Part shown: piece after piece, positions 25,877 through 44,170 of the stretch
How the letters are laid out: the number at the start of each line of letters is the position of its first letter
Position numbering within the stretch: the first letter of the stretch is position 1
Assembly: GCA_034370385.1 (NCBI GenBank)
Contig: JAXMKZ010000059.1
Coordinates: 124,001-188,000, forward strand
Reading direction: 5' to 3'
Length of the DNA: 64,000 nt
DNA from: Coriobacteriia bacterium
GTDB taxonomy: Bacteria; Actinomycetota; Coriobacteriia; Anaerosomatales; PHET01
The notes under the pieces: model-generated
Told to the model about the DNA's origin: nothing
What the model saw: the letters and a program-made list of their open reading frames with translations, nothing else
Database searches by the model: none
Position numbers and translations under genes: made by a program

Positions 25877-26542
25877 CTACGCGTTCCAGAGGTAGCCCAC
25901 GTTGCGCACGGTGTCGAGACGGCGCGACAACTCAGCGCCCAGCTTCGCGCGGATGCGTCGAATGTGGACGTCGACCGTACGAGAGCCCCCGTAGTAGTCA
26001 CTTCCCCACACCCGACGTAGCAGGACCTCACGCGAATACGTACGTCCGGGATGGGTGAGCAGAAAGGCGAACAGCGCGTACTCGAGGTAGGTGAAATCGA
26101 TGGGTTGACCATCGATGTGCGCCTGATACGTGGCCAGATTAAGCGTCAGGTTCTCGACGCGGATGAGCTCCTGACGCGCAACCTCTTCACCGGGCCACAG
26201 CAGGTTGCGAACCCGCACGGCCAGTTCCTCAGATGAGCTTCCGCGAACGAGAAAGTCACTGGGCATCTGCACGGGAAGCCTCATGCTGGAGAGCGCCTCA
26301 CTCTCAACCACCACGAGGAGCTTGACCTCAGCGCCGCCGGACGCCGCATTCTCGACGGCGTGAGTCAGGGCCTCCGGGCTCCTGCCGCCGTCCAGTATCA
26401 CCAGCTCGACGTTTCCGTCGAGGGCGCGCCGGGGAAGTTCGGCCAAGCCGCACTCGACGATCACCACATCCAGGCCGTCGAGCGGCGAGCGGATCCAAGC
26501 CCGCGAGAGGTCGTCATCTGAGACTATGAGCACGTGTCGCAT
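25877..26542 (-). CDS. GlnR-like orphan OmpR-family regulator
   Basis: A 221-aa response-regulator-like protein. The N-terminal receiver is divergent (SDDDLSRAW, LVILDGGRSPE) and lacks a clear phosphorylation pocket; no histidine kinase is adjacent. The C-terminal winged helix (THPGRTYSREVLLRRVWG, YYGGSRTVDVHIRRIR, VRNVGYLW) closely resembles actinobacterial GlnR, which acts unphosphorylated. It lies directly downstream of glnA on the same strand, behind a terminator hairpin. The ATG at 26542 has no ribosome-binding site, but TAGAAT sits 7 nt upstream, so a leaderless transcript is possible. GlnR function is inferred from the DNA-binding domain, the receiver and the nitrogen context. A PhoB-like regulator is the alternative. 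Confidence 0.8.
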   Translation of the reverse strand: MRHVLIVSDDDLSRAWIRSPLDGLDVVIVECGLAELPRRALDGNVELVILDGGRSPEALTHAVENAASGGAEVKLLVVVESEALSSMRLPVQMPSDFLVRGSSSEELAVRVRNLLWPGEEVARQELIRVENLTLNLATYQAHIDGQPIDFTYLEYALFAFLLTHPGRTYSREVLLRRVWGSDYYGGSRTVDVHIRRIRAKLGAELSRRLDTVRNVGYLWNA

Positions 26543-26583
26543 GTGCACGATTCTAGCGCTCCCGTCGCAATCTTGTGGAACAA

Positions 26584-26616
26584 GACGCCGGGCGGAGAGC
26601 TTCCCCGCCCGGCGTC
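26584..26616 (-). terminator. glnA terminator
   Basis: A 12-bp perfect stem (GACGCCGGGCGG at 26584-26595 and CCGCCCGGCGTC at 26605-26616) with a 9-nt loop lies 29 bp after the glnA stop. TTGTTCC follows on the minus strand. Confidence 0.8.
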
Positions 26617-26645
26617 GTTGCCGTCTATCGCTTGCGTTTCGCGGG

Positions 26646-27977
26646 CTAGATCACGCTCAGGTAGCGATCCAGCTCCCACTGAGAGACGTCCTTGATGTAG
26701 TCGGTCCACTCGGCCTTCTTGTTCTTGGCGTAGAACGTGTGGATATGCTCGCCGAGGATCTCCTTCATCGCCTCTGACTTCTCGAACCACTCAATGGCCT
26801 CGCCGAGGTTACGCGGCAGGGTCTTGATGCCAGCGGCCTCGAGCTCGGCCGGCGTCATCTCGAAGATGTCGTTGGTGGCTTCAGGCATGAGCTCGAGCTT
26901 CTCCTCGATGCCCTTCAGACCGGCGCCCAGCATGACGGCGAAGGCGAGGTACGGGTTGCACGAGGGGTCCGGCGAACGGAGCTCGATGCGGGTTGCGGCC
27001 TCCTTGCCGGGCTTGTAGAGCGGCACGCGAACCATCGCGGAGCGGTTGGCCTGCGCCCATGAAACGTACACGGGAGCCTCGTAGCCAGGAACCAGTCGCT
27101 TGTACGAGTTCACGAGCGGGTTGGTGATGGCACAGAACTCAGGAGCGTACTTCAGCAGACCGGCGATGTAGTGGCGGCAGGTGTCGCTCAGGAATCCCGG
27201 CTTGGATGCGTCGTAGAACGCGTTGCCATCCTTGGTGAAGAGCGACTGATGGGTGTGCATGCCTGAACCGTTGATGCCGGCGATGGGCTTGGGCATGAAC
27301 GTGGCATACACGCCGTTGGCCATGGCGACTTCCTTGACCACGAGGCGGTACGTCATGACCGCGTCGGCCATGGTGAGCGCCTCCTGGTAGCGCAGGTCGA
27401 TCTCGTGCTGCGACGGGGCGACCTCGTGGTGCGAGTACTCGACCGGGATGCCCATCTTCTCGAGGGTCAGCACGGTCTCGCGACGCAGGTCGCTCGCGAT
27501 GTCGAGCGGAGTGAGGTCGAAGTAGCCACCCTTGTCGATGATCTGGGTGCCTTCGTCATCTGCGAAGTAGAAGAACTCGAGCTCAGGACCGACGTACATG
27601 GTGTAGCCCATGTCCCCGGCCTTCTTGAGCATGCGCTTGAGAGCATAGCGAGGGTCACCATCGAACGGCTGGCCGTCGGGCGTAGTGATGTCGGCGAAGA
27701 TGCGGCCGACGCCCTGCTCGGACGGACGCCACGGAAGGATCTGGAACGTGGAAGCATCAGGGAACGCGACCATGTCGGACTCCTGGATGCGGGTGAAGCC
27801 GTCGATCGAGGATCCGTCGAAGCCCATGCCCTCCTCGAACGCACCTTCGAGCTCGCTGTCGGTGACGGCGAACGACTTCAGAACGCCGAGCACGTCCGTG
27901 AACCAGAAGCGGATGAACTTGACGTCGCGCTCCTCGACGGTCTTGAGGACATAGTCCTTGTCGAATGACATCGGCAT
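26646..27977 (-). CDS. glnA: glutamine synthetase type I (alpha subtype)
   Basis: A 443-aa enzyme making glutamine from glutamate, ammonia and ATP. GMGFDGSSIDGF, GPELEFFYF, PKPIAGINGSGMHTHQSLF, NRSAMVRVP and ELRSPDPSCNPYLAFA are the beta-Asp-loop, metal, ammonium and ATP-site motifs. The length and the absence of an NLYDLPP-like adenylylation tyrosine place it with GSI-alpha, which is controlled by feedback inhibition rather than by adenylylation. The ATG at 27977 has GGGAGG 8 nt upstream. Upstream lies the repeat element with GAAAC half-sites; downstream is the GlnR-like regulator. Confidence 0.97.
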   Translation of the reverse strand: MPMSFDKDYVLKTVEERDVKFIRFWFTDVLGVLKSFAVTDSELEGAFEEGMGFDGSSIDGFTRIQESDMVAFPDASTFQILPWRPSEQGVGRIFADITTPDGQPFDGDPRYALKRMLKKAGDMGYTMYVGPELEFFYFADDEGTQIIDKGGYFDLTPLDIASDLRRETVLTLEKMGIPVEYSHHEVAPSQHEIDLRYQEALTMADAVMTYRLVVKEVAMANGVYATFMPKPIAGINGSGMHTHQSLFTKDGNAFYDASKPGFLSDTCRHYIAGLLKYAPEFCAITNPLVNSYKRLVPGYEAPVYVSWAQANRSAMVRVPLYKPGKEAATRIELRSPDPSCNPYLAFAVMLGAGLKGIEEKLELMPEATNDIFEMTPAELEAAGIKTLPRNLGEAIEWFEKSEAMKEILGEHIHTFYAKNKKAEWTDYIKDVSQWELDRYLSVI

Positions 27978-28067
27978 ACGTGTGACCTCCCTTTCCCGGC
28001 ACGCCTGTCAGGCGTGCCCGCCGGTGACGTTATTCATACGTCGTGGGCAGCAAGATACACGGTCAAT

Positions 28068-28089
28068 GTTTCGGAGTTGTTTCGGTTTC
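28068..28089 (-). promoter_or_regulatory. GlnR-like box upstream of glnA
   Basis: On the minus strand three GAAAC half-sites occur (28085-28089, 28079-28083 and 28068-28072), the last two separated by exactly six bases. A TATGAA -10-like hexamer lies at 28033-28038, placing the box about 40-60 bp upstream of the presumed transcription start, a usual activator position. Confidence 0.55.
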
Positions 28090-28101
28090 GCCCCGAACGC
28101 A

Positions 28102-28127
28102 GAAGGCCGCCCCAAGAGGCGGCCTTC
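28102..28127 (-). terminator. hairpin terminator of the giant cytochrome gene
   Basis: GAAGGCCGCC (28102-28111) and GGCGGCCTTC (28118-28127) form a perfect 10-bp stem with a 6-nt loop, 27 bp after the giant gene's stop. It is symmetric and could act in both directions; there is no long U-tract. Confidence 0.7.
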
Positions 28128-28153
28128 GCGTGATCTGAACACCAGGGTGTTGC

Positions 28154-31100
28154 CTACGGCCACACCGGACCAAGATCGGGGTGGGGCCAACTGCCGCAAC
28201 CAGCACAGTCACTTGCCGGCCAGTCGTTCGGTGTCCGGTTTCGCAGCTTGATGTTCTTGAGCGGTCCCCTCGCGTAAGGGCTTCGATAAGCTGCCGGGTC
28301 ACTCGAGTTGATGAGAAGCCTCGGGCGCTTCCAGCCATGCGGAATCGCGATGTGACAGGACGTGCACTTCATCGTGTCATCGTACTCGCGCGTGTGGATC
28401 TTGTTGCCGGCTCCCTGCGCGAGCGCACGCGCGCCGTGTGCATCGTTCTGGGTGGGGCTGAACACGTGGCACTTGGTGCAGATAACCTGGCCCGTTGGCC
28501 ACACGTTGTCCGGCTCGCGCCAGTCGAGTGAGGCTTGGCGATAGTCCGCAGGATACGCCGGATCGATGAGGAAGCGCACGCTCGAGCCGTGCGGCCCCTT
28601 CGCCGACGACATCGCACCTGAGGTATGGCAGTCCGAGCACGTCACAGCCGAGTTGCGGGTCCATCCTGGCTTGAGGAAGCTCGCATCCGGGGGCAACGTC
28701 CAGGTGTAGGTTGTCCCGTCCACCAGGAACGAGTCCTTCATCCCCTTCGAAAGACCAAGGACATTGTGGAAGCTCTGGTTGTTCGGGTTGAACTCTGCCG
28801 CCAGGTCGGTGGAGGTGTAGGGAACCCCTCCTGATGTCGCCGCAGCGGGGCGTCCAGAAGCCGACGTGTGGCACTTGAAGCACACGTAGGCCTCAACGTC
28901 GCCCGGGCGACCCAGGAGCCGCGTCGCCGTGTAGCTGGTGAGCGTCGACCCCGGCGTGCTGCCCCAGATCGGCTTGAGTCCCGTGGCACCAAGCAGTGCA
29001 GGAGATGCGATGGGTACTCCGCCGGCAAGACGGTCGCCCGCGGGCTGCGCGGCGTGCGGGTCGTGGCAGTCGGTGCACTCCGCGTGTCGCTTCGTCCCGT
29101 TGTCGACTGCCGACTCTGCGTCGGAGTGCAGGCCGGACGCTGATGGATCGTGTCGATAAGGCAGCAAGACGACCGACGCTACATCCTGCGCCCCCGGTGC
29201 CTGCGTGCCGACGACCCCGTTGCCGTGACACTGGAAGCACAGTTTCTCTTCGAAGCCGGCGCTCGACGTGTTGTCGCGCGTGCCGGCCCGCCCGCCGACG
29301 AAGCCCGTGGGCTTCGTCCACGCGGTGAGTCGTGGGTTCTGAGACGCGTGCGGGTCATGGCAGTTCTCACACAGTGCTTTGGTGCCCGAAGTCGTGAAAT
29401 GCCCCGACTTCTTGAATGCGGCCGGACCGACATCCTTCTCCCAGCCGGGGAAGAAGGAGTCGCTGCCAAACACGCTGAATCCGATGTCATAGGGCACCAC
29501 GTTGCCGGCTGATATCGCGCGGCTCAGGTTGCCGCTCGAGTGGCACTCAAGACAGAACGTCGTCATGTCGGTAGGCCTAAGGGTCGTGTTGCCCGGCTGT
29601 GAGACACGCACTACGTCCCACGCCCCCGCACCCTTCTCAACCGTGTGAGAGTTGTGGCAGCTGGCGCAGCTCAACGATGCGACTCCTGAGTTATCGTCCA
29701 CAGGAATGCGAGCAGTGACACTCCAGCCGCGAAGCGAGGGTGTAATGGTCTCTGAGTTCGTGACGAGCTGCGCCGTGAGGCGAATCCGGCGATACGCGGA
29801 TGAATCGATTCCCGAAAGATCAAGGGGGCCATACCGCTTGTTCGCCATACCGGGAAGCGCCGTCCAGCTCGCTCCATTCCAGCCCTCGACCGACATGTAG
29901 AGCTCTGTCCCCAGTGGCTCGAAACTGGCCCAGGCGAACTCTCCCCAGCCTATTGCGTCCGCAGGCAGGTCGATCTCAGCACGCATTGTGCCCGAAGCCA
30001 GGTATCCGGTGACCGGTATGTTGGCGGTCGAAACGCGCAGGAACGCCATCGAACCGTTGCGGACTTCGCCGAGTGCCGTGGGCGGCGTGGGAAGCAACTC
30101 CCATGTGCCCCAATCGCCGGTGAGCGGGTCGGCCGGTACTCGGATGCGTCCGGGGTTCGGGCCGCTGTTCTCGTGCAGCGCGTAGATGTAGTCGCCCCCG
30201 TCCCACAGAAGCTTTGTGCCTTTCCCGCCGTGGTACCAGAAGAATTCGGGTAGCGGAGTCATGGAGTGGACCCCCGAAGCGAGCCCGCTGATCAGGTACG
30301 CCCTCTGACCTCCAAAGGCGTCCGAGGTCGGCCCCTCGTAGACCAAGTAGTCGGTCCCCCCCAAGGTGAAGCGCGTCAAACCCATGTACAGGTCGCCGCT
30401 GCCCCACGTGCTCCCGGGCTGTGCAAGCACCTGCTGGCTGTAGGTGGCCTGGCCCGAAGCGGTCGACGGTGAATCGACCCAGCGAATCACGGGCGCCTGG
30501 TTGAAGTTCTTCGTCACCGCGTAGAGCCGGTCATTGATGGGCGAGTAGGCGAAGTCGGAGCTCGTGAAGTCGATGGGCGTGCCGCCAGCGCTCTTCATGA
30601 CGAACGGAGCCATCCACGTATCAGTAGGTGCGAACCATCGGTAGACGGTGCCTGCCGTGTTGTTTCCTGCGTAGTATACAAGCCCTGCATCAGGGTCAGC
30701 AGAAGACAGCACATGCCTGTCCGCGACGAACGGGAGCGGACTCAGCGAGTTCCACGAGTCGGGGCTTGAAACGTTGATCGGGGTGTAGGACATCCTCGTG
30801 TCGAATCCCTGCCCCACGCTCCACACGAACTTACCCTGCACCGCGAGCCCGCTGCTGCCGTAGTACGCAGTTCCCGCCGCCGGATTCGTGGGATCGTAAC
30901 TGTGACCGTTCCACACGTTCAGGTCCGGGTCGTACTGCGAGAAGGACCGAGGATCCGGATGGACGCTCTCCGGTGCCAAGAACAGAAGCGGGCGGGTCAC
31001 AGACGGAATCGTCCAGCTATCCCACAGCAGCTGCGCGCCCATAGTGGACGAAGCCGAGACCTGGAAGCTGTTGTTCGCAGCAAGTTCGATCGGCGTCGAT

Positions 31101-34100
31101 TGGGTGAACACGCCGACCGTCTCTTCTCGAGTGGTACCTACGGACGACGCTCCCTCGACCGGATGCGCACTCGGTCGGGCGAACTCAACCGCGAGATCGC
31201 GACCGTTCCACGTGTTGGGCACCGGGGTCCGCGTCTCGTCGCCGCTGGCAGAGTGGCACTCGAAGCACAGTGCCGACTGCCCCTGTCTGCCGCCTGCAGT
31301 CCGGAACTCGGTGGCCGCGCCTGCGCCGATCGCGTTGTGGTTGTGGCACGCCTCGCACGCGGTGTTCGACGGCACGGCGCCGTCAGAACCAGCCATCACG
31401 GATGATCCGTGGGCCGACCCTGCGTAACCTGCGCCATGATCACCGCCGGTGTTGTTCCAGGTGCCCGCTCCGACGAGCGCATCGATCGCAGCACTGGAAG
31501 CGCCGTGACAGTCAAGGCACAGCCCGTTGCCCGCAGCGTTCGGGGCATGGGTGCTCGGGTGACAGGCGTTGCAGTCCTTAGACCACGTGGCCGCCGGTAC
31601 GGATCGCACTCCGGCCACGTACTCCGGCGAGTTGTGACACTCGACACACCCAACAGCGCTGCGCCGACCAGCGTCCTTGGCGTGCTCCTTGGAGACCGCG
31701 GTCTCATGGCAGTTCTTCGTGCAACTGAGGCTCATGCTCACGTCGTGCACGGTGGGCAGCCCCGCGTGACGCTGCTCCGTCGTCCCCGGAGTGTGGCAAC
31801 CGCCCTGCTGGCAGGACTGGTTCCAGGACCCGAACGTACGGCGCGGGTTGTCGTGACAGGTGGCGCAGCCCTTGGCAGAAGTCACCGAGCCCTTGCGCGT
31901 GTGCTCCGCCATGAGGTCCATCGAGTGGCACGCATCGCAGCGCGCGCCACTGACGGGCTCGATGGATGCCCCTGAGTCCGCGACGTGATCGACATCTTCA
32001 TAGCCGTGCGCGGTCACGCGGTCCGGGTGGCAGGACTGCGTGCACGCCGGCGCAACAGCGGAGGGCTGCTTGTCCCAGACAAGGAACTCGTCCACCGCCA
32101 CGGCGATGCCTGAAGAACCAGCCGGACGCACGCCCGTGACGCGCACTGAGACCGTATGGGGTCCACGAACGAGCGTGCTTGACGTGAACAGCGTCGTCTT
32201 GTCGACGACTGTCGGAGAGTAGCCATTGATTGTCGCGACGACGACGCCGTCGATCGAGACCTCGAGTTCGCCGAAGTTGGGTCCTTTACCGCCACTGATG
32301 GCAACCTTGGTGCCCATGAACGAAATGCCCAGCGTCGAACCTTTCACAACCGAAGCGCTGCGGCGTTGCATCGAGTAAGCGGTCTTCGTCTGCGTCATCC
32401 ACGTTCCGGTCTTCACCACCGTGTTCGCGGGCTTCGTGCCGATCGCCGCATGGGTGAAGTCCTCGAAAGACACCGGCTCGGCCTCGGCCAGACCTGCGGT
32501 GTTGTGACACTCGCCGATTCCGCACTGCTGGAACGACTCGGTGACCGAGACAAACGACTGGTCCTCGCCCACCACGCCGTAGCAGATGCGTGTGGCGACG
32601 GGGGCTCTCGCGGTGTAGCGGGGATTGCCGATACTGCTGTGCTCGGCATGCAGGGGGGACAACGCGCCCGAGTGACAGGCCTCGCACGCAGCAGGAGCGT
32701 GACAGCTGCTGCACTTGGAGTCTCCCTTGGTGATCGAACCGGGCCAACGAACGGCAGCGTGTATCACATGAAGATCGCCCGAGGTCGTATCCTTCGAGCC
32801 CAACGAGGCAAAGGATCCGTAGGGCGTGATCTTCGTTGGGGTCGCAGCCAGCGTGCTCGCGCCCATCAGCCCCCTGTGGCACACCGCGCCGCAGTTGCCG
32901 CCTGCATAGTGATTGGGGTGCGTGCCCGCAAGCCCGTACGTGTGGCAGCGAGGACATGCCGTCTCTCGGTCCACCTTCTGGACGCCGAAGTTGACCGCCA
33001 TCTGGGGTGGAGCCCCCGCCGCGCCATGGCACGTGATGCACGGTGCATTGCTGGTTGTGGTCCCGCTCCCTCCGCCGGAAGCCACGTAGTCAACAACGAC
33101 GTCGAGCGAGTGACGGCTCTCCACATGGCCCAACAGATCGACCGACCAGTACTCGACCGTGGTTGTTCCCTCGTCCGCAACGATGATCGCTGTCTGATCC
33201 GCGGTGAACGGCCGGACCTGGCCGCCGTTAATCCGATAGTACGTCTGCGCGACCCCTACGCCAGCGTCCGTCGCCATCGGCACAAGCTCCACGACAGCCG
33301 CGCTGACGCCTGCAGGCGCGCCCAAGAGCACGGTGTGCGGCGGACTGTAGTCGATCCGGATAGTGCCGGTCTTCTTCGGGGATTCGATGTTGCCCATCAG
33401 GTCCCACGCCCAGTACTCGACGGTGTGCGTGCCCTCGTCGGACACGGTCACCGGTACCGAGTACGGCATGTCGGGACCGCCGTCGATACGGTAGCTGGTG
33501 CCGCTCCATCCGCTGAGCGCATCCGTGGACACGATCGAGAACGTCTGAGGCGTCTTGCGCCACGTGTCATCGATCGTCGACACCGAGCCCGGGAATGAGG
33601 TGTCTATCGTCAGCGTCTCAACGTGAGCTGGCTCCGCGTTGCCGGCGACATCGACCGCCCACCAGCGCAGGGTATGGATCCCATCGCCGATGACGATGGG
33701 CGCCGAGTAGGTACTCGCCGCAGACCCATCGACCTGGTAGCGAACGCCAGCCATTCCTGACAGCGCATCAGTCGCGGCGATGGAGATGACCGCGTCCGTC
33801 GGCGACCATCCGGTCGGAATCCCGGTAGCCGTGCTACTGGGCGGCGTGAAGTCCACCGACACCGTCTGGCTGCGTTCGCTGTAGGCGCCGGCACGGTTGC
33901 TGGCCTCCACCCGCACGAGGTGGCTGCCCTCAGTCAAGCGGTAGGTGGCGGTGTGTACGTCGTATGCATACGTATGGTTCTCATATGCCCTCGGCGACCC
34001 ATTCAGCCAGACGTGATGGGAGTTCACGCCAGACAACGCATCCGTCGCAGAGACGCTCAGGGTGTCCGTCGCAAGCCAGCCCGCTGACGGGATGTTCCAG

Positions 34101-37100
34101 CCGATGACGGGCGCAGTACTGTCAACGAGCACGTAGCCGTACTTGGGTGCTTCAGCATTCCCGTACAAGTCGACCGACCAGTAGCCCACCAGCGTGGTGC
34201 CCTCGGTGCTGATTGCTACTTCCGAGGTATACGTCGTCGGTGACCCACCGTCGAAGTTATAGAACGTATGTGCGACGCCGGCCCCGGGATCGGTCGCGGC
34301 GAGGGTGAACGTCCCATCCCATCCCCACCAGCGCGGGATGCCTGTTGCGGTCGTGACCGGTGGCGTGTAGTCGAAGCCGATGCGGTCGCCGACCACAGAG
34401 ACGTTACCTGCGATGTCGCGGAAGCCGAATGCGATGTTGGTGTCGAGCCCACCGCGCTCCACGAACACCGCCGCGGTCGGAATGACCGACTGCCATGCGG
34501 ACGGCATGATCGCAGTCGGCACCCACGTCGAGACGCCTACCGTCCCCGCGCCGGTACCCAGCTCGCCGTAGACGTTGCCCCCCCACGTGTAGACGGCGCC
34601 GTCTCGCTTCAGCGCAACGACCGATGCCGTGCCTGCGTCGAGCGCGACCCAGTCGGTGGCTGCATCGATGCGCCGCGGAACGGTGGGGGCGTTGCCCGTT
34701 GCGGTCTGGTAGCGATCGGAACGACCCCATGCCCACAAAGAGCCGTCAGTGCGAATGCCCGTCGAGAAGTCATCACCGGCCGACAGCGACTGCCAGCCCA
34801 CCGACCCCAGCGCCTGTGGCGTGTTGTAGCTACTGGCGGCCCCGGAGTTGCCTATCTGCCCGTAGGTGTTGTTGCCCCACACGTAGGCCGAACCGTCCGT
34901 GCGCAAGCCCATCGCGTGCGAAGAGCCCGCGGAGACTGACGCCCAGTTGGTCGCCGTGCCGACCTGTATGGGTGCGGACGCAAATGTGCCTGCCCCGATC
35001 CCAAGCTGATACTGAGACCCCGTACCCCACACCCAGAGAGTTCCGTCGTTTCGGACCGCCATCGAGTAGGTGGATCCGGCTGAGATGGCCGTGAACACCA
35101 ATCCCGCGCCCGAGACCTTCGTGGGGAGGGGCTTGTCCTGAACGTCTGCCCCGAGTCCGAGAGCACCGTTGCCACCGTACCCCCACGCCCATACGGATCC
35201 GTCTTTCTTGAGGCCCAGACTGTGGTTGGCCCCCGCCGCTATCTTGGCCCATTCGCCGGCCGCGCCAACCTGAGCGGCCGTCCTACCGAACGGACCCCCG
35301 ATGTGCCCGGTGCCGACCGCCCCATACCTCTCCGAGCCCCAGCCATACAGCGTGCCGTCTGCGGCGAGCCCCAGCGCATGCTCGATGCCGTAGCTGACCG
35401 CAACGAAGTCACGCAAAGGCGTCGATGACACCGGCGTCGAGCGATTCGTCGAGGTAGTGTCGCCGAGTTTCTTGACTGGGTTGTAACCCATGGAGTGAAG
35501 TCGTCCATCACCACGGATGAGGCCGATGCTGTTGCCGCCTGCCGCCACGGCGGTGAACGGCGTATCCTTCGTCATCTCAACTGCGAAGGGCACGGTTATG
35601 CTGGCGACCACCGTCTGCGTCCCTGCCCAGGCAGCGCCCCCCTCGACGACAACCGTCCCCGGTGTTGCTGCGGTGTTGAGCGTGATCGAGTCAGTCAACG
35701 ACCCGATATTGCCGGCGGCATCCACGACCTTCACGTTGACGTTCTTGACGCCGTTGCCCGCCGGCAAGGTGAACCGGTGCTGTGGCGTGTAGCTGAACCA
35801 GTCGGCACGAACCGGAGCGGGCCGTACGACACCGGTCTCGTTGCCGTACAGTGCCACCGGGAAGCCCCAGACCCACAACTCTCCAGAGTTGTCGGTAGCC
35901 ATGCTGACACTGTCACCATTGGCGACCGACGCCCAGTTGTTCGCTAGACCTACCCGTACCGGAGTCAGTCTGGTCTGGGAAGTGCCGTCGCCCACCTGAC
36001 CATCGGAGTTGTAGCCCCAGCCCCAAAGTGACCCGTCCGCCTTCACCGCGGTGGCGTGATACTCGCCGCCGGCCACGGACTTGTAACCCGTGCCTATGAG
36101 GGTCGGGACGAGTCTATCCGTCGTCGTGCCGTCTCCGATCTGCCCGTAGCTGTTGGATCCCCACGCGTAGAGATCGCCGTTGGCACGCACGGCATACGTC
36201 GTGGTTCCACGCGCCGAGACCGAGATCCAGTCGGTGAATCCGCTCGTGCCGTTCGGCTGCACGGGCGTCGACATGACGCTCTGGGTGTTGTCGCCTACCT
36301 GTCCGGAAGTATTGAAGCCCCACGTCCAGAGCGAACCATTCGTGCGAATACCCACGAACGTGTCGCCGCTACCGCCGGACACGGCCTTCCACGTTGTGCC
36401 AGCTTGGACGTTGACGGGCGTGAGTTGCGGGGTGACCGAGTTGCCAAGGCCGCACTGCCCCTGGCCGTTGTGACCCCAGGTATACAGGGCGCCGCCTGTG
36501 GTGATGGCAGCTCCGCTCTGGCCCCCGACGGTGACCGTCGACCAGTTGCTCGCGGTACCAAGCCGGATAGGTAGGCGCACCGGGGCGAAGCCGGATACCC
36601 CAAGCTGCCCGCCCTGACTGTCGCCCCACACCCACAGCGACCCGTCCGTCTTGACCCCGGCAGCGAAGTAGTCGTGAACTGCAACCGACCTGTACGTGGC
36701 TCCGTCGCCCGCCTGAGCGAAGACCCCCGGCACGTGGTTCGTCGTGGAGAGGCCGTTGCCGGTGTACACGAAGTATTCGTCCGTACCGCGTCCCCACAGC
36801 GTTCCATCGCCCCGGACGCCGAGCATCGTCTTGGAGCCGATTGTAATCTGACCCCACCCCGCCGGAGGCTCGGTCCGGATGCCCACCGCGTCCGAGCTCA
36901 CGGAGGTCACCGCAACCGCCGTGCGGAATCTCGTCGAGGCATCTCCTGCGTTGATTGAGAACGTCCCCGTGGGAGCCTGTGTATCGAGAATAATCTGACT
37001 GGCGAACTCGGTGATTCTCCCGTACTCGTCACGGAAGAGGACCGAAAGCTGCTTCGGGCCGTCGCCCGGATCGACAGCCATGGTGGCGACCGCTGAGTAC

Positions 37101-40100
37101 GGCTGCCATTCGCCAGACCCGAGCTTCATGTCCACCACACTGGTGATCTTCGAGACCACCGGCACCGTGATCGTGTTGATGGCGGTGGCGTCGTTGGCGA
37201 AAGAAACCGTGCCGGTGGGAGCCGGGGCGAGTATGTAACGGAAGGTCATCAAGTGCGGCGTTTCACGGTTGCCCGCCACGTCGATGCTCCAGTACTCGAG
37301 CAAGTGCTCCCCTTGGGTCAGGGGCGGCTCGATGGGTGCCTCACGGGGAGCGCCGCCATCGAGCGAGTACCACGTCGACCCGAGGCCCGAGAGGCCGTCC
37401 GTCGCGTGCAAGACAGGCATGGTGTCCCACGGCCAGGTGTCGTCGCACGTGGTCACCGGCGCAGTGCCATCGACCTGGACGCGCACGGTCTCGGTCGGAT
37501 CCACGTGGCCGAGCGCATCGACGGACCAGTAGTAGAGGGTGTGGTCACCTTCGCCGACCATGAACGGTGCCGAGTACTCAGTCACGGCGCCGTTGTCGAG
37601 GCGGTAGTAGGCGATCACTGAAGAGACCGTGTCGAACGCCGTTATGCTGATCTCAACTGACTCGGTCGACCAGCCCACTGGGATCGAGCTGATCGTGGTG
37701 GTCGGAGGGAGCACGTCGAAGACCTCGCTCCGAATCTCCTCGACGTTGCCTGCGGCGTCAACGCTCCAGAACTCCAGGTGCATATCGGAGGTGCCAAGCG
37801 GGATCGGCGCCGTGTAGGTGGCGGCTGCGGAACCGTTGACGCGATACCTGGTGCCGACTGAACCCGAGACCGCGTCGACCGGCGTGAGCTCGACCGCGGT
37901 GCCGCCGAGCAGGCTCGCGGCGGTCACCGGTGGGGCGGTGTCGACCTTCACGGTCACCGTATGCGTGGGATCGACATGCCCCGCCCCGTCAACCGACCAA
38001 TAGCGAAGCGTATGTGTGCCGTCACCGATTGTGAACGGCGCCGTGTAGGTGGTGACCACGCCACCGTCCAGCGTGTAGTACGCGGTCGGCGGCGCCGCGA
38101 TATCCTCGGCGATTATCGTCACTTCGACGGTCTTAGTAGACCAGCCGCTCGGAAGCGGCGTCGTTGTTGTGGTCGGCGGGTTGTGGTCGTAGACGAAGTT
38201 GACGGTCTTGGTCGTCTCGATGTTGCCGGCCTTGTCGATGCTCCCGTACTCGAGGGTATGGGGGCCTTCCGTGACAGCGGGAAGCGGAAAGGCGATCGGC
38301 TTCGCCGGTTCCGAATCGAACGAGTACCAGGTCGACGCGATGCCGGAGAGCGAGTCGGTAGCGCTGAGGTAGATGGCGCCATCGTGGAACACACCTTCAG
38401 TGACCGTGGACGTCGTGACCGGCGCGACGTAGTCGATCTTCACGTCGTAGGTCTGCGCACCCTCGATCTTGCCGGTCGCGTCGACGGCCCAGAAGGTGAT
38501 CCTGGTGACCCCCGGGTCAGACACCTCGAACGGCGCCGTGTAGGTCGTGGTGACGCCCTCGCCAAGTCGGTAGTACGTCGTAGTCGGGGAGCAGTCGTCG
38601 TAAGTGAACAACTGGATCCGCACGGGGGTCTGCGACCAGCCGTAGGGAGTCGCCAGTATCGAGGTTTCAGGCGGCGCGACGTCCACAAAAGCGGTTGAAC
38701 TGAGCCAGTCGATGTTGCCCGGCTCGTCGCGGTATCCGACACGAAAAGTCGTCGTCCCCAGTGCCCAGTCGATTTCGATGGTCTTGTCCGCCTGGTAAGG
38801 CTCCCAAATCGCGGGTGGCGGATTCCAGTCCTGCAACCAGGCCGGCTGCACGGGCCAGGGTGAGCTGTTCCAGCGGGGCGTACGGACCGGACCCAGAACG
38901 CCATGCCCGTTGGTGCCCCAGCCGTACACCGCACCGTCGGTCGTGGACGCGAGCATGCCGGTCGGCCCTGCCGCCACGAGCGACCATTCCGTCCCGGTGC
39001 CCACACGAAGCGGAGTGCGACGCGTCTCATACGTGCCATCGCACAGCTGACCGAGAGAGTTGTCACCCCAGACCCAAAGCGACCCGTCCGCGCGGATAGC
39101 TGCACTGGAGGAAGTGCCACCGTACGAACCGCTCGCGGAGACGCGCTGCCAACTGCCGGAGTCGATCAGTGTTGGAGCGGTGCGGTCGCTGCCGCCGCCG
39201 TTGCCGATCTCACCGTTGGCGTTGCTGCCCCACGCCCAGAGCGTGTTGTCGGTGCGGATGCCCAGGGAGTGATTGTGTCCCGCGGAAACGGACTTCCAGC
39301 CTGTGCTGATGAGCACGGGGGCTTCTCGGCCGGTACGGGTTCCGTCACCGACTTGTCCGTAGTAGTTCTCGCCCGATGCGTACAGTGTGCCGTCATCGGT
39401 CAGCAGCAGCATGTGCTGACTGCCGAGGGATGCCTGACGGTAACGGATGCCGGTGAGCGGGCCGCCGCCGCGGTACACGAGTCCCGAGTCGCCGCTCGGG
39501 GAACCCCACGTGTACAGCGAGCCGTCGGTTCGAACGGCGGCGCTGGCATTACCGTATGCGGCGACTGCGACCCATCCGTCCGCATCGATCATCTTGGGCG
39601 AGGTAACGGGCGTCGCGCTGGCTCCAGCGCCATCGCCGAGCTGACCCGAGGTGTCCGATCCCCAGACCCATAGCGACCCATCGTTCTTGATCGCAAGGGT
39701 GTGGGCGGCCCCCATCGCGACGGCCTTCCAGGCCTGATGCCCCGGCGTGCGCGTGTAGGCCGAGCGCTGCGAGGTGGTCCCGTCACCGAGCTGGCCTGCC
39801 CAGTTCGCGCCGGTTGCGTGAAGCGGCCCGTCTTGGGAGACGATGAACGAAGAATCGCTCTGGTAGCCTCCGTCGTAGGGATACCAGTACCCGGAGCTGA
39901 AACCGAGGGCGAGCGGCGGCTGCGCTATACGCATCTCCGTAGCGGTCGGCACGCTCGAGGCGATCGCGATCGAATGACCACCCAGACTGGTCGCCGTCAT
40001 CGTCCCGACCGACTGGCCCGGATTGAGCACAATGTTGTCCTGCGCGGTGGTGGCGTTCCCCGCCGCGTCCTTGTAGGCGCAAGCGAACCCGGTCGTACCC

Positions 40101-42955
40101 GAGGCGGCTGGCAGCGGGCGGACGAGCGACGCCTCATACGGCATCCAGTCGGTGTTGATCGGGTAACGCACGTTGTTGGTGGTGCCATCGCCGAGTTGAC
40201 CGTAGCCGTTCGCGCCCCAGGCCCACAGCTTGCCATCGCTTCGAACGGCGACTGTGCTGGCACCACCCGAATCAAGCGCTGAGAAGTTCAGGGACGCGTC
40301 AAGCGCGAGAGGGAGGACGCGTGCGACGGTACTCTCGCCAGCCGTCTGGCCGAGGTCGTTGGCCCCGACGCCCCACGGTGTTCCGTCATGCTTGACGGCG
40401 ATGATGAACCGGTCTCCGGCGCTGGCCCTGAGCCAGGTGCCGTCGAGTTGCGTGAGCGTCGACGCGGTCATCTCACCCAGGCGACCAGACCAGTGAAGCG
40501 TCCCGTCGCTGCGCAGCGCGGCCAGCGTCTCGGCGCCAGCACTGATCGACGTCCAGGCCGGCTCGGCCCCTGACACCAACACGGGAGCGTGCTGGTCGCC
40601 GACCGCACCGTTGCCCATCTGCCCCGAGTCATTCGCTCCCCAGGCCCACAGCGCACCGGCCGAGTCGATAGCGTACGAAGAGTCGCCGCCCGCAGCGATC
40701 GCAGTGAACGTCATCCATGGCGTTACCTGGCTCGGGAGGTCGCTTGAGCTCAAGCCGCCGTCACCGAGCTGTCCACGCTCGCCCTTCCCCCAAGCGAACA
40801 AGCGCCCGTCCGTGGTCAGTGCGAGCGTGTGATTCTCGCCGGCAGCGACCAAGCTCCACTGGCCTCCGCCTGGCACCGCCACCTGGCTCGCCAGCTGGCG
40901 ATCGGCGCGAATGCCCTCGTTGCCAACATCGCCAAGCTGCCCGGACTCGTTGGCGCCGAACATCCAGAGCGTTCCGTCGGCCTTGATCGCACCGGTGTGG
41001 GAACCCCCGGCAGCCACCGCGGTCCACGTGCCGCCCGGCACACGCACCGGCGTCGAGCGCTGCAAGACCCCGTCTCCGAGTTGCCCCCTGGCACCGTCGC
41101 CCCATGTCCACAAGGAACCGTCGGTCCGCAACGCGGCCGCATGCGACCCACCGACCGACACGGACTTCCACGTCGACGGATAGCCGATACGCATCGAGAC
41201 AGCGTCGGAGAAGTCCGAATCGATGGTGACCTTCCGGCCTCGCGTGGAGGTCGCGGCGTGGTTCAACGCCATCGTCCCGAGCGGAGCCTGCCGGTCGAGC
41301 GTTATCGAGTCGCTCGCGCTGAATTCGGTGAGTGTCGCGTCGCGAAACCTCACCGCAACCGTGTACTCGCCGTCGGCGTCGGGCAGCGTGTAGGGCGCGG
41401 AACCGGCGGCGGGCACCCATTCCCCACCTTCGATCGACATCTCCACCGCGGTCGGTGCGTCGATCTCCAGCGTGACCGCCGTCGACTGTGCATACGGCGC
41501 GCCCCAGTTGATGGCGACGCTCGTAGTGCCCCCTCTGAAGTCATAGGCGACCTCATCGGTCAGCGTTCGCGTTGCCCCACCCGCGTCGCGAAACATCACC
41601 GATACCACCTGCGTGCCCGACGCGCCGTCATCGGCCGGCAAGAGATACGGACGCATCGGCGAGTACGATTCCCAGTGCCCGATCTGCATTGGCGTGCTCA
41701 CCATGGCATCCGAGTCGTTACCCAGGAATCGACCGTCGCCCCAACCCCACAGGTCACCGCCACTCACGGCGAAGCATGCGGTCCACGGGACCGCTGCGAC
41801 CATGTTGCAGTACGGCAGGCCAACGACCTGCGCCGGGCTGGATGCGTATTCGGCACCCAGATTGCCCCACCAATACATGGTTCCGTTCGCACAAGCCACC
41901 GATGCGTAGGCTGCAGTCGCTATGTCGTTGAAGCTGGTACCGACGGCGACGGGCATCGGCCCGAACATCGCTCCACCCGAGAACCCGAGCCCCAGCGACC
42001 CGATGTAGTTGTCGCCCCATGCGTAGAGCGACCCGTCCGCCTTGAGCCCGAGAACGTGTGTGCTGACTTCGCCCATCGAGACCTTGAGCCAGTCGTTATC
42101 CGTGCCCACCTGCGTCGGCGTCGATGTGTTAGCGCCATCTCCGGTCCCAAGCTGGCCCGTCATATTGGATCCCCAGGCCCACAACGACCCGTCCGTCTTG
42201 ATCGCGAAGCTGGACCGGTTGCCCGCAAATGCGGTCACCCAGTCGGTATCGGTACCCACTTGGACCGGTCCAGACGTCCCGGGGGTATCGTTGCCGAGCT
42301 GGCCTAGATCGTTCTCACCCCACGCCCAGAGCTCGCCGCTCCTGATGGCGAGAACGTGCGTATTGCCTGCTGACACGTCGGTCCAGCCCGCTTCGGACCC
42401 GATCTGCCGAGGAGTACCCTGCTGCGGTGCCATATCGCCATATTGTCCGTACCAGTTGTCGCCCCAGGCCCAGAGCGTCCCATCAGCCTTGCGCGCGATA
42501 CTGCACGCGAAACCGGCCGAGATCTGGACCCAATCGTTGTCGCTCCCGATCATCACCGGGGTGGCCCGGAATGGCCCTCTGGGCGCTCCGCATGGCTCCC
42601 AGCGGTTCACGCCCCACGCCCACACCGTACCGTCGGTGGCAAGCACCAACGTGTGCTCCATGCCGCTGTCGATCGAGGCAATCGGGGGAACGAAACGCAT
42701 CGCGTCCGCATCGGTGACATCCGAGTAGAGCGTCACCGTGCGCCTCGTCACGACGGGTGCATCGTTCTCGATGGTCATGCTCGCGCTCGGATCGCCGAGC
42801 GCCGCGTAAGCAACTCCCGCCCCGAACAGACACAAGATGGCAGCGAGGGCGACAAAGAACGGCTGGCGCGCGCCGAACCCACGCGAACCTGCGATTAGCG
42901 TAGTGAACACAGTCGTCCCCCGCTCGGTACGGGACCGCGCTCGCGCGCAATCCAC
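28154..42955 (-). CDS. giant secreted RCC1-repeat/Ig-like/multiheme cytochrome c protein
   Basis: A 4,933-aa exported protein in a single open frame. The signal peptide is at about residues 30-52 (FFVALAAILCLFGAGVAYAA). Five blocks of RCC1-type propeller repeats (WAWGxNxxGQLGDG) lie near residues 85-430, 600-935, 1015-1390, 2035-2385 and 2470-2825. Ig-like/OmpL47-type repeats (e.g. YWSVDGAGHVDP) lie near 1400-1920 and 2840-3285. Heme motifs start near 3305 (CITCH). There are 16 up to about residue 3910, then a kelch-like beta domain (about 3985-4390), then 9 more between 4430 and 4865. I count 20 CxxCH, three CX3CH and two CX4CH. No membrane anchor or sorting signal was seen. The likely role is extracellular electron transfer or surface contact. 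GTG 42910 is an alternative start. Confidence 0.9.
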   Translation of the reverse strand: MDCARARSRTERGTTVFTTLIAGSRGFGARQPFFVALAAILCLFGAGVAYAALGDPSASMTIENDAPVVTRRTVTLYSDVTDADAMRFVPPIASIDSGMEHTLVLATDGTVWAWGVNRWEPCGAPRGPFRATPVMIGSDNDWVQISAGFACSIARKADGTLWAWGDNWYGQYGDMAPQQGTPRQIGSEAGWTDVSAGNTHVLAIRSGELWAWGENDLGQLGNDTPGTSGPVQVGTDTDWVTAFAGNRSSFAIKTDGSLWAWGSNMTGQLGTGDGANTSTPTQVGTDNDWLKVSMGEVSTHVLGLKADGSLYAWGDNYIGSLGLGFSGGAMFGPMPVAVGTSFNDIATAAYASVACANGTMYWWGNLGAEYASSPAQVVGLPYCNMVAAVPWTACFAVSGGDLWGWGDGRFLGNDSDAMVSTPMQIGHWESYSPMRPYLLPADDGASGTQVVSVMFRDAGGATRTLTDEVAYDFRGGTTSVAINWGAPYAQSTAVTLEIDAPTAVEMSIEGGEWVPAAGSAPYTLPDADGEYTVAVRFRDATLTEFSASDSITLDRQAPLGTMALNHAATSTRGRKVTIDSDFSDAVSMRIGYPSTWKSVSVGGSHAAALRTDGSLWTWGDGARGQLGDGVLQRSTPVRVPGGTWTAVAAGGSHTGAIKADGTLWMFGANESGQLGDVGNEGIRADRQLASQVAVPGGGQWSLVAAGENHTLALTTDGRLFAWGKGERGQLGDGGLSSSDLPSQVTPWMTFTAIAAGGDSSYAIDSAGALWAWGANDSGQMGNGAVGDQHAPVLVSGAEPAWTSISAGAETLAALRSDGTLHWSGRLGEMTASTLTQLDGTWLRASAGDRFIIAVKHDGTPWGVGANDLGQTAGESTVARVLPLALDASLNFSALDSGGASTVAVRSDGKLWAWGANGYGQLGDGTTNNVRYPINTDWMPYEASLVRPLPAASGTTGFACAYKDAAGNATTAQDNIVLNPGQSVGTMTATSLGGHSIAIASSVPTATEMRIAQPPLALGFSSGYWYPYDGGYQSDSSFIVSQDGPLHATGANWAGQLGDGTTSQRSAYTRTPGHQAWKAVAMGAAHTLAIKNDGSLWVWGSDTSGQLGDGAGASATPVTSPKMIDADGWVAVAAYGNASAAVRTDGSLYTWGSPSGDSGLVYRGGGPLTGIRYRQASLGSQHMLLLTDDGTLYASGENYYGQVGDGTRTGREAPVLISTGWKSVSAGHNHSLGIRTDNTLWAWGSNANGEIGNGGGSDRTAPTLIDSGSWQRVSASGSYGGTSSSAAIRADGSLWVWGDNSLGQLCDGTYETRRTPLRVGTGTEWSLVAAGPTGMLASTTDGAVYGWGTNGHGVLGPVRTPRWNSSPWPVQPAWLQDWNPPPAIWEPYQADKTIEIDWALGTTTFRVGYRDEPGNIDWLSSTAFVDVAPPETSILATPYGWSQTPVRIQLFTYDDCSPTTTYYRLGEGVTTTYTAPFEVSDPGVTRITFWAVDATGKIEGAQTYDVKIDYVAPVTTSTVTEGVFHDGAIYLSATDSLSGIASTWYSFDSEPAKPIAFPLPAVTEGPHTLEYGSIDKAGNIETTKTVNFVYDHNPPTTTTTPLPSGWSTKTVEVTIIAEDIAAPPTAYYTLDGGVVTTYTAPFTIGDGTHTLRYWSVDGAGHVDPTHTVTVKVDTAPPVTAASLLGGTAVELTPVDAVSGSVGTRYRVNGSAAATYTAPIPLGTSDMHLEFWSVDAAGNVEEIRSEVFDVLPPTTTISSIPVGWSTESVEISITAFDTVSSVIAYYRLDNGAVTEYSAPFMVGEGDHTLYYWSVDALGHVDPTETVRVQVDGTAPVTTCDDTWPWDTMPVLHATDGLSGLGSTWYSLDGGAPREAPIEPPLTQGEHLLEYWSIDVAGNRETPHLMTFRYILAPAPTGTVSFANDATAINTITVPVVSKITSVVDMKLGSGEWQPYSAVATMAVDPGDGPKQLSVLFRDEYGRITEFASQIILDTQAPTGTFSINAGDASTRFRTAVAVTSVSSDAVGIRTEPPAGWGQITIGSKTMLGVRGDGTLWGRGTDEYFVYTGNGLSTTNHVPGVFAQAGDGATYRSVAVHDYFAAGVKTDGSLWVWGDSQGGQLGVSGFAPVRLPIRLGTASNWSTVTVGGQSGAAITTGGALYTWGHNGQGQCGLGNSVTPQLTPVNVQAGTTWKAVSGGSGDTFVGIRTNGSLWTWGFNTSGQVGDNTQSVMSTPVQPNGTSGFTDWISVSARGTTTYAVRANGDLYAWGSNSYGQIGDGTTTDRLVPTLIGTGYKSVAGGEYHATAVKADGSLWGWGYNSDGQVGDGTSQTRLTPVRVGLANNWASVANGDSVSMATDNSGELWVWGFPVALYGNETGVVRPAPVRADWFSYTPQHRFTLPAGNGVKNVNVKVVDAAGNIGSLTDSITLNTAATPGTVVVEGGAAWAGTQTVVASITVPFAVEMTKDTPFTAVAAGGNSIGLIRGDGRLHSMGYNPVKKLGDTTSTNRSTPVSSTPLRDFVAVSYGIEHALGLAADGTLYGWGSERYGAVGTGHIGGPFGRTAAQVGAAGEWAKIAAGANHSLGLKKDGSVWAWGYGGNGALGLGADVQDKPLPTKVSGAGLVFTAISAGSTYSMAVRNDGTLWVWGTGSQYQLGIGAGTFASAPIQVGTATNWASVSAGSSHAMGLRTDGSAYVWGNNTYGQIGNSGAASSYNTPQALGSVGWQSLSAGDDFSTGIRTDGSLWAWGRSDRYQTATGNAPTVPRRIDAATDWVALDAGTASVVALKRDGAVYTWGGNVYGELGTGAGTVGVSTWVPTAIMPSAWQSVIPTAAVFVERGGLDTNIAFGFRDIAGNVSVVGDRIGFDYTPPVTTATGIPRWWGWDGTFTLAATDPGAGVAHTFYNFDGGSPTTYTSEVAISTEGTTLVGYWSVDLYGNAEAPKYGYVLVDSTAPVIGWNIPSAGWLATDTLSVSATDALSGVNSHHVWLNGSPRAYENHTYAYDVHTATYRLTEGSHLVRVEASNRAGAYSERSQTVSVDFTPPSSTATGIPTGWSPTDAVISIAATDALSGMAGVRYQVDGSAASTYSAPIVIGDGIHTLRWWAVDVAGNAEPAHVETLTIDTSFPGSVSTIDDTWRKTPQTFSIVSTDALSGWSGTSYRIDGGPDMPYSVPVTVSDEGTHTVEYWAWDLMGNIESPKKTGTIRIDYSPPHTVLLGAPAGVSAAVVELVPMATDAGVGVAQTYYRINGGQVRPFTADQTAIIVADEGTTTVEYWSVDLLGHVESRHSLDVVVDYVASGGGSGTTTSNAPCITCHGAAGAPPQMAVNFGVQKVDRETACPRCHTYGLAGTHPNHYAGGNCGAVCHRGLMGASTLAATPTKITPYGSFASLGSKDTTSGDLHVIHAAVRWPGSITKGDSKCSSCHAPAACEACHSGALSPLHAEHSSIGNPRYTARAPVATRICYGVVGEDQSFVSVTESFQQCGIGECHNTAGLAEAEPVSFEDFTHAAIGTKPANTVVKTGTWMTQTKTAYSMQRRSASVVKGSTLGISFMGTKVAISGGKGPNFGELEVSIDGVVVATINGYSPTVVDKTTLFTSSTLVRGPHTVSVRVTGVRPAGSSGIAVAVDEFLVWDKQPSAVAPACTQSCHPDRVTAHGYEDVDHVADSGASIEPVSGARCDACHSMDLMAEHTRKGSVTSAKGCATCHDNPRRTFGSWNQSCQQGGCHTPGTTEQRHAGLPTVHDVSMSLSCTKNCHETAVSKEHAKDAGRRSAVGCVECHNSPEYVAGVRSVPAATWSKDCNACHPSTHAPNAAGNGLCLDCHGASSAAIDALVGAGTWNNTGGDHGAGYAGSAHGSSVMAGSDGAVPSNTACEACHNHNAIGAGAATEFRTAGGRQGQSALCFECHSASGDETRTPVPNTWNGRDLAVEFARPSAHPVEGASSVGTTREETVGVFTQSTPIELAANNSFQVSASSTMGAQLLWDSWTIPSVTRPLLFLAPESVHPDPRSFSQYDPDLNVWNGHSYDPTNPAAGTAYYGSSGLAVQGKFVWSVGQGFDTRMSYTPINVSSPDSWNSLSPLPFVADRHVLSSADPDAGLVYYAGNNTAGTVYRWFAPTDTWMAPFVMKSAGGTPIDFTSSDFAYSPINDRLYAVTKNFNQAPVIRWVDSPSTASGQATYSQQVLAQPGSTWGSGDLYMGLTRFTLGGTDYLVYEGPTSDAFGGQRAYLISGLASGVHSMTPLPEFFWYHGGKGTKLLWDGGDYIYALHENSGPNPGRIRVPADPLTGDWGTWELLPTPPTALGEVRNGSMAFLRVSTANIPVTGYLASGTMRAEIDLPADAIGWGEFAWASFEPLGTELYMSVEGWNGASWTALPGMANKRYGPLDLSGIDSSAYRRIRLTAQLVTNSETITPSLRGWSVTARIPVDDNSGVASLSCASCHNSHTVEKGAGAWDVVRVSQPGNTTLRPTDMTTFCLECHSSGNLSRAISAGNVVPYDIGFSVFGSDSFFPGWEKDVGPAAFKKSGHFTTSGTKALCENCHDPHASQNPRLTAWTKPTGFVGGRAGTRDNTSSAGFEEKLCFQCHGNGVVGTQAPGAQDVASVVLLPYRHDPSASGLHSDAESAVDNGTKRHAECTDCHDPHAAQPAGDRLAGGVPIASPALLGATGLKPIWGSTPGSTLTSYTATRLLGRPGDVEAYVCFKCHTSASGRPAAATSGGVPYTSTDLAAEFNPNNQSFHNVLGLSKGMKDSFLVDGTTYTWTLPPDASFLKPGWTRNSAVTCSDCHTSGAMSSAKGPHGSSVRFLIDPAYPADYRQASLDWREPDNVWPTGQVICTKCHVFSPTQNDAHGARALAQGAGNKIHTREYDDTMKCTSCHIAIPHGWKRPRLLINSSDPAAYRSPYARGPLKNIKLRNRTPNDWPASDCAGCGSWPHPDLGPVWP

Positions 42956-43086
42956 CGTGCCGCCCCCAGCACGTTCGGACAGTATGTGCGCGAGAGGATG
43001 GACGCACTGCGGTTTCTGCTCGCCAAAGGTGAGCGGTCAACCGCACACGCTGCCGAACGAGTGTTAAGTACGCTCGCGCAACCGTA

Positions 43087-43116
43087 ATTATGTACGCGCG
43101 CTATAGAGAACGTCAA
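43087..43116 (-). promoter_or_regulatory. promoter of the giant cytochrome gene
   Basis: The minus strand has TTGACG (43111-43116), an 18-bp spacer and CATAAT (43087-43092), a good housekeeping-type promoter about 130 bp before the start codon. It is the clearest -35/-10 pair I noticed in the window. Confidence 0.6.
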
Positions 43117-43168
43117 GGATTCTTCATAGAGGAGCCCTACGTCGTTCGCAGCAAGATGCGGGGTTTGT

Positions 43169-43184
43169 GGTTCGGAGTTGTTTC
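43169..43184 (-). promoter_or_regulatory. GlnR-like box variant upstream of the giant gene
   Basis: On the minus strand GAAAC (43180-43184) is followed after six bases by GAACC (43169-43173), one mismatch from the glnA version. It lies about 90 bp before the presumed start of transcription, so activity is uncertain. Confidence 0.35.
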
Positions 43185-43202
43185 GGTTTCGCCCCGAACG
43201 CA

Positions 43203-43228
43203 GAAGGCCGCCCCAAGAGGCGGCCTTC
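43203..43228 (-). terminator. hairpin terminator of the hdr-glt operon
   Basis: The stem (43203-43212 with 43219-43228) and loop are identical to those at 28102-28127. It lies about 110 bp downstream of the gltB3 stop. Confidence 0.65.
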
Positions 43229-43338
43229 GCGCACTACGAGACGATGGAATCGCCGCGCCCTCTGTCCGTTTCGTCCCAACCAGATGCAACCGTTGACGAT
43301 ACGAAACGGCCAATCAGGCGTGGCGATGGATGAATCGT

Positions 43339-44157
43339 CTACACGTACGTGTACATCTTCCCGTACGGCCGGTGCGAGATGGGCACGAGCCGCGTGAACG
43401 GTACCGACAGCACCTCGTCGACATCGAATCCGACGGCCGAGCAGTACTCCTCCAGCAGCGGCTTGAGCTCAGCCAGCTCCTCGTCGGTCATCGTGAAGAT
43501 GCCGCACTCCTTGCCAACCTGCCAGCTCTCCACCTCGCCGCGCAGGATTATCTCGCCGCCGTGCATGCCGGTGCCGACGTACCCTCCCACCAGCGGACCT
43601 TCGAGCCGTGAGTGCATGCCGAGAAGGATGAGCAGGCCGCCGGCCATGTACTCGCCGAAGAAGTCGCGCGCTTTGCCACCGCAGATCATCGTGGGTCGCA
43701 GATCCTCGAACGCCTTCATGTGAATGCCCACGCGGTAACCGACGTCGCCCTTGATGAAGACGCGTCCGCCGCGCATGCCGTAGCCCAGAACGTCACCGGC
43801 CGAGCCATGCACGATGACGGTGCCCGCATTCATGGTGTTGCCGACGCCATCCTGCGCGTTGCCGAACACCTCCACGGTCGGGCCGTCCATCAGCATCGCC
43901 ATGTCCTGCCCCGGGGTGCCGTGCACCTCGATGCGCAGATCCTTGCCCTTGATTCCCGTGCCTATGTAGCGCTGTCCGTTGACGTTCATCAGCTTCACGA
44001 TCTTGACGCCGTCGGCGAAGCACCGCCGGATAGCCTCGTTGACGAACTTGTAGTAGACGCTCTGACACTCGATCGTGGCGGTGTCACCATCGACGGCGAC
44101 AGTCGGCTCGATCTGTAGGTAGCCCTCGATCGGGCCCTTCACGGTAGCTGTAGTCAT
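43339..44157 (-). CDS. glutamate synthase GXGXG-domain subunit (GltB3)
   Basis: A 272-aa stand-alone version of the C-terminal GXGXG beta-helix domain of glutamate synthase large subunit. Repeated motifs are visible: GTGIKGKDLRIEVHG, GDVLGYGMRGGRVFIKGDVGYRVG, GGLLILLG and GYVGTGMHGGEIILRG. In full-length GltB this domain is structural and links the amidotransferase and synthase domains. The ATG at 44157 has GGAGG 7 nt upstream. It is last in the hdrBC-gltB1-gltB2-gltB3 operon, 13 nt after gltB2. Split, archaeal-type glutamate synthase genes of this kind occur in many anaerobes. Confidence 0.92.
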   Translation of the reverse strand: MTTATVKGPIEGYLQIEPTVAVDGDTATIECQSVYYKFVNEAIRRCFADGVKIVKLMNVNGQRYIGTGIKGKDLRIEVHGTPGQDMAMLMDGPTVEVFGNAQDGVGNTMNAGTVIVHGSAGDVLGYGMRGGRVFIKGDVGYRVGIHMKAFEDLRPTMICGGKARDFFGEYMAGGLLILLGMHSRLEGPLVGGYVGTGMHGGEIILRGEVESWQVGKECGIFTMTDEELAELKPLLEEYCSAVGFDVDEVLSVPFTRLVPISHRPYGKMYTYV

Positions 44158-44170
44158 GGTGTCTCCTCCC

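Follow-up and report, generated by a model that had tools for sequence, protein, structure and literature searches.

Why a 94-bp direct repeat borders a giant cytochrome gene, and whether the 15-kb segment between its copies arrived by insertion, are the questions raised by the window analysed here, i.e. the whole 64-kb stretch of DNA, which belongs to a genome of 2,691,491 bases in 65 contigs (G000). Along the minus strand an HdrB-like gene and the glutamate synthase parts are followed by the repeat copy R2, the giant gene, the copy R1, glnA and the gene of a winged-helix regulator:

45685 to 46986, minus strand: glutamate synthase amidotransferase part
44171 to 45682, minus strand: glutamate synthase FMN domain protein
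43339 to 44346, minus strand: gltC (the name used here), a GXGXG protein and part of glutamate synthase
43138 to 43231, minus strand: R2, second repeat copy, in the interval between gltC and the giant gene, with intact hairpin and altered promoter
28154 to 42955, minus strand: giant gene, up to 4933 aa, with RCC1 repeats, Ig-like/CHB_HEX domains and 20 CXXCH motifs
28037 to 28130, minus strand: R1, terminator-type hairpin and putative GlnR-type glnA promoter, aligning with the single copy of a genome from the same family (G001)
26646 to 27977, minus strand: glnA, type I glutamine synthetase
25877 to 26548, minus strand: OmpR/PhoB-type regulator, GlnR-like

Direct comparison of R1 and R2 gives 85 of 94 identical positions without a gap and an identical terminal stretch of 61 bp, for which the chance expectation of an exact pair in 64 kb is 1.8e-25 (a composition-based estimate). 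Both copies are intergenic: R1 lies between the giant-gene stop at 28154 and the glnA ATG at 27977, R2 between the gltC stop at 43339 and the start of the giant open reading frame at 42955 (or a GTG at 42910). In each of them hairpin, GAAAC motifs and gene follow one another on the minus strand; in all these points, the coordinates included, the original prediction was correct. The similarity ends abruptly on both sides, where adjoining blocks of 20 bp agree at 2 to 6 positions. The nine differences (28045, 28046, 28057, 28059, 28060, 28064, 28065, 28066 and 28069 in R1) all fall within the promoter-side 33 bp (p 3.6e-5 under random placement). A search of the whole genome of the window, which had been proposed as a check, returned R1 and R2 as the sole copies; no third copy was found there, the next-best match being 29 bp long (E 0.08), and with two copies only a genome-wide repeat family is ruled out.

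The promoter-side part of the repeat contains the following elements, each identified together with its counterpart in the other copy:

28068 to 28083, minus strand: glnA operator GAAAC-N6-GAAAC (exact motif match, orthologue alignment)
28052 to 28057, minus strand: inferred glnA -10 element TATCTT, 10 bp past the operator
43169 to 43184, minus strand: degenerate operator GAAAC-N6-GAACC upstream of the giant gene (motif scan, R1/R2 comparison)
43153 to 43158, minus strand: CATCTT, the R2 counterpart of the glnA -10 element (orthologue alignment, R1/R2 comparison)

Judged by its sequence, the repeat contains a putative GlnR-type nitrogen operator upstream of glnA, with two GAAAC sites at an 11-bp period and at a fixed distance to the -10 element. 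A glnA search matched in 54 of 61 genomes of the order, and the best 30 loci were read upstream; without the window and G001 these comprise 28 orthologues, all of which possess the motif [GT][AT]AAC-N6-GAAACA upstream of glnA. The second site (b-site) is invariant in 28/28 and TA...T is conserved at +15 to +20 from it, while the first site is GTAAC or TTAAC in seven orthologues and GAAAC in the remainder. Two 5-bp sites of the form [GT]NNAC ... GAAAC with a 6-nt spacer are present in R1 and in all 28 orthologues, and R2 deviates at one essential position. A sigma70 -35/-10 pair was not found by the scanner at R1. The GAAAC half-sites of the original prediction are real; more sharply described, they make up a putative GlnR-type operator of 11-bp period, kept before glnA across the order. 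Published GlnR boxes, as given in a review, read gTnAc-n6-GaAAc in S. coelicolor and t/gTAAC-n6-Gc/aAAC in M. smegmatis, and the adenine at the fourth position is reported there as irreplaceable (PMC10704036). The same review describes the two 5-bp sites 11 bp apart of actinomycete GlnR regulon promoters, to which the operator found here is similar (PMC10704036). In contrast to the boxes of Streptomyces and Mycobacterium, it occurs in a Coriobacteriia-related order and its a-site is mostly GAAAC; unlike the a-b-a-b arrangement it consists of a single a-b box.

The gene for the regulator is located 3' of glnA in 27 of the best 30 loci (one miss is a contig end). Its three best PDB sequence matches are 8hih, 8hig and 8hml, which are titled GlnR (M. 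tuberculosis, Saccharopolyspora erythraea) in the structure search, and its DNA-binding domain is 45-47% identical to 8hig/8hml, the GlnR of Saccharopolyspora erythraea. The protein is thus an OmpR/PhoB-type winged-helix regulator with GlnR as the nearest relative by sequence. In a Foldseek search with the whole model (mean pLDDT 85.7) KdpE ranks first by E-value and 8hih third; the whole-chain TM-scores, which do not exceed about 0.5 and come with large rmsd, are read as differing domain orientation in the predicted model. The alignment shows D53 and D11/D12 to be conserved; a receiver domain was not matched by Pfam. The pho box, whose 11-bp direct repeats stop some 10 bp short of the -10 element, has the same geometry as the operator, and structures of the PhoB effector domain are close to the regulator model. 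However, the half-site sequence and the nitrogen-related targets are unlike those of the PhoB system, and by sequence the regulator is closer to GlnR than to PhoB.

The distribution of the box in the genome points in the same direction. GAAACN6GAAAC has four exact matches in G000 against none for the reversed-pattern control, and all four precede nitrogen-assimilation genes, i.e. glnA1 (R1), a second glnA (glnA2) located at C51, amtB-glnK-glnD and the glt cluster. Two of them lie elsewhere in the window:

3722 to 3738, plus strand: perfect GlnR-type box before amtB (ATG 3809), glnK (5144-5482) and glnD (5498-7753)
48477 to 48492, plus strand: reversed box GAAAC-N6-GAAAC, some 158 bp ahead of the first gene of the glt cluster, which is HdrB-like (ATG 48319)

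These targets, together with the OmpR-type regulator gene adjoining glnA, resemble the GlnR regulon (glnA, amtB). At the corresponding position before its glt cluster, a further genome of the family (G002) likewise carries a box. The pattern KWAACN6GAAACA matches three times each in G000, G001 and G002, each time ahead of glnA, amt or the glt cluster; in G003 it matches once, inside a helicase-like frame, against five control matches. Over the 61 genomes of the order GAAACN6GAAACA is found 109 times and its reversed control 11 times. A same-strand box lies no more than 260 bp away in 43 of 50 glnA1 loci and in 5 of 37 loci of the second glnA, which places 48 of the 109 matches, the remaining 61 having been inspected in the family genomes only. 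With one mismatch allowed, 21 matches, R2 among them, stand against 13 for the control in G000, so sites with a single mismatch are mostly noise. These data are computational evidence that GlnR-type nitrogen control reaches this actinobacterial order, and a search of the available literature gave no paper in which GlnR and Coriobacteriia are both named. The amt gene of the window (after uvrA, 3722-5482) has no tblastn match in G001 and G002. All three genomes encode a protein of the ammonium transporter family in this context, with nitrogen box and adjoining glnK kept, and amt has possibly been replaced in place beneath a conserved promoter.

The claim that the 15-kb segment was inserted, and the proposed check for relatives that lack the run from 28.1 to 43.1 kb, were followed up in G001. 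Here gltC, one control region and glnA are contiguous and the giant gene is missing from the junction. Positions 22515-28089 of the window align to G001 at 75.7% and 43334-46833 at 85.6%, collinear on both sides; the two aligned stretches end 63 bp apart in G001, and the window holds about 15.2 kb more, essentially the giant gene. The order in G001 is gltC stop, about 22 nt, a hairpin, GAAACCGAAACATCTCCGAAACATTGAGCCTGTATCTT and glnA, with the promoter part GAAACCGAAACATCTCCGAAACATTGA...TATCTT between hairpin and glnA. Both the insertion, relative to this empty site, and the duplication of a terminator-promoter module, which is single in G001, are thereby borne out. Among the best 30 loci gltC lies 97-195 bp before glnA in ten, from six families and with G001 included, and 671 bp before it in one more; the rest show other or unseen neighbours, some at contig ends. 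The polarity of the insertion within the family is based on one genome (G001) and the outgroups. In G002, also of the same family, gltC and glnA are on separate contigs, and the junction thus seems to be labile and not fixed even within the family. A marking of the insert as foreign by composition was considered and rejected, the GC content being 0.62-0.68 inside and outside, on both sides of the boundary.

Each copy of the repeat begins with a predicted hairpin:

28102 to 28127, minus strand: terminator-type hairpin in R1, 26 nt past the giant-gene stop (folding, z -3.3; position)
43203 to 43228, minus strand: hairpin in R2, identical to that of R1, about 110 nt past the gltC stop (folding; position)

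Both are strong and GC-rich but without a good U-run, and neither was called a terminator by the scanner. The hairpins of R1 and R2 are the same but differ from that of G001; the duplication therefore seems to be younger than the split from G001, or the copies were homogenised. A second stem, GTTCGG...CCGAAC, forms in R2 and in a shorter fold of R1 and is missing from the G001 fold. The repeat had been predicted to be a regulatory or RNA element, and of the two the regulatory DNA stands. An RNA element as the conserved function is not supported, since the conserved part, the hairpin excepted, precedes the inferred start of transcription and Rfam gave no match at the gathering threshold, sub-threshold matches appearing only when it was relaxed. 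A riboswitch or other RNA family was rejected on these Rfam results and on the second stem, which is not in the G001 fold.

The best reading of these sequence comparisons is that the giant gene entered the gltC/glnA junction together with the duplication of the 94-bp module, insertion and duplication having, as we infer, one history. Stated in full, it seems likely that the module of gltC terminator and glnA promoter was duplicated in this lineage with the giant gene between the copies, and that the R2 promoter was weakened. Every gene would keep its signals in this way, gltC the R2 hairpin, the giant gene the R1 hairpin and glnA the R1 promoter. An insertion without duplication would sever either the glnA promoter or the gltC terminator, and selection may therefore explain the repeat. 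The GlnR-type regulator would bind R1 and activate glnA, both hairpins would stop transcription, and R2 would mainly end the glt transcript while driving the giant gene weakly at most, possibly in response to nitrogen. A single event that copied the junction during DNA insertion would fit, and so would a tandem duplication first and the capture of the giant gene afterwards; on paired nicks as an origin of the 94-bp duplication no report on bacteria was found in the material available.

R2 is probably an attenuated promoter with an intact hairpin. Scored with the orthologue matrix, R1 reaches 30.4, G001 31.7 and R2 20.2, and the leave-one-out scores of the 28 orthologues range from 16.4 to 38.5. 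Among the bases changed in R2 are the A at the fourth position of the second site and the T that opens the -10 element, and at the differing positions G001 resembles R1 and not R2. With both bases lost, the giant gene is probably weakly expressed from R2 or from another promoter nearby downstream, for which there is one candidate:

43087 to 43116, minus strand: sigma70-like TTGACG-18-CATAAT past R2, a candidate promoter belonging to the giant gene itself (scanner, 2 found against 2.9 expected by chance)

The clustering of the differences could, as far as the sequences go, also reflect gene conversion of the 61-bp part instead of decay of the promoter.

A rather unlikely but best surviving alternative is that R2 is a working GlnR-type promoter which has brought the giant heme protein into the nitrogen-starvation regulon. 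R2 faces the giant gene, with one of its half-sites and the distance to the -10 element intact, and it is the third-best promoter match of the 64-kb window (amtB box 26.8, best unrelated site 7.1). The scores of the weakest orthologues (16.4-21.3) bracket its own, so R2 may still be active. However, its b-site reads GAACC where 28/28 orthologues have the A that the review (PMC10704036) reports as irreplaceable, the implied 5' leader would be about 190-235 nt long, and the sigma70-like site, no better than chance, lies between R2 and the gene. If R2 still works, nitrogen status would be linked to a putative exported heme-rich protein.

A 15.1-kb cassette that can be excised or move, with R1 and R2 as its recombination sites, is an improbable reading. 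Recombination at the 61-bp identity would yield a G001-like gltC-R-glnA junction and a 15.1-kb circle, and a related multiheme gene of G001 lies about 8 kb away beside tRNA-Leu. Direct repeats flanking an insert recall transposon target-site duplications and the att repeats of islands. But a single gene takes up the interval from R1 to R2, a transposase, integrase, IS or extra repeat copy was not seen, so that the hallmarks of a mobile element are missing, and the G001 multiheme gene is without notable flanking direct repeats. Unlike such repeats, the 94 bp carry nine changes and are fully accounted for as the host's own promoter, single in G001. Slightly less credible still is the combined proposal that the duplicated glnA promoter puts the giant heme-rich protein under nitrogen control and that the repeats define a unit of precise removal, whose dropping restores the glt-glnA junction. 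It is very improbable that the giant gene is ancestral here and was lost from G001 by deletion between the repeats; direct repeats do promote such deletions, but nine more loci of the order, from five other families, have gltC directly before glnA and no giant gene, and the G001 hairpin is unlike that of R1 and R2. An assembly artefact, with giant gene and R2 on a separate circle or misjoined at the 61-bp identity, is equally improbable, as repeats of 61 bp can collapse in short-k assembly but the two copies are distinct, both outer flanks follow the G001 order, the giant frame is intact and the contig measures 225 kb.

The name giant cytochrome describes the protein in part. A heme region with 20 CXXCH motifs is present from about residue 3300 (CXXCH from 3306 on), but the name is incomplete, RCC1 repeats making up much of the protein, and a single frame joins both parts. 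A full-length relative was not found in the three other family genomes; relatives of the C-terminal part with 36-49% identity occur elsewhere in the order. The order, whose genomes go by the names Coriobacteriia, Anaerosomatales or Actinomycetota, matches a lineage with many multiheme cytochromes, and the part of that source available does not mention GlnR, glutamine or nitrogen (PMC9686372). In the literature searched no paper on RCC1 multiheme proteins was found. G003 has 46 RCC1-like matches, many within long frames. The multiheme gene of G001 (L186:15130-18927) encodes 13 CXXCH motifs between tRNA-Leu(caa) and a histidine-kinase-like gene and is missing from the equivalent site of the window (51174-51388); the end of its product and a part of the giant protein share 55.6% identity over 349 aligned columns, and direct repeats of note were not found at its flanks. 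At L094:1535-4535 a frame with 16 CXXCH motifs directly follows gltC, and its product matches the giant protein's heme part at 31% identity. The idea that multiheme genes have repeatedly used the junction was left aside here, the genome of L094 showing only the second glnA.

GlnR boxes, terminators and insertions flanked by direct repeats are each already known in kind. Their arrangement at this locus suggests that a very large gene could settle between two nitrogen-assimilation operons, with the signals spared by duplication of the module. Elsewhere in the order the box was duplicated independently, with two tandem nitrogen boxes about 65 bp apart before glnA at the locus L043.
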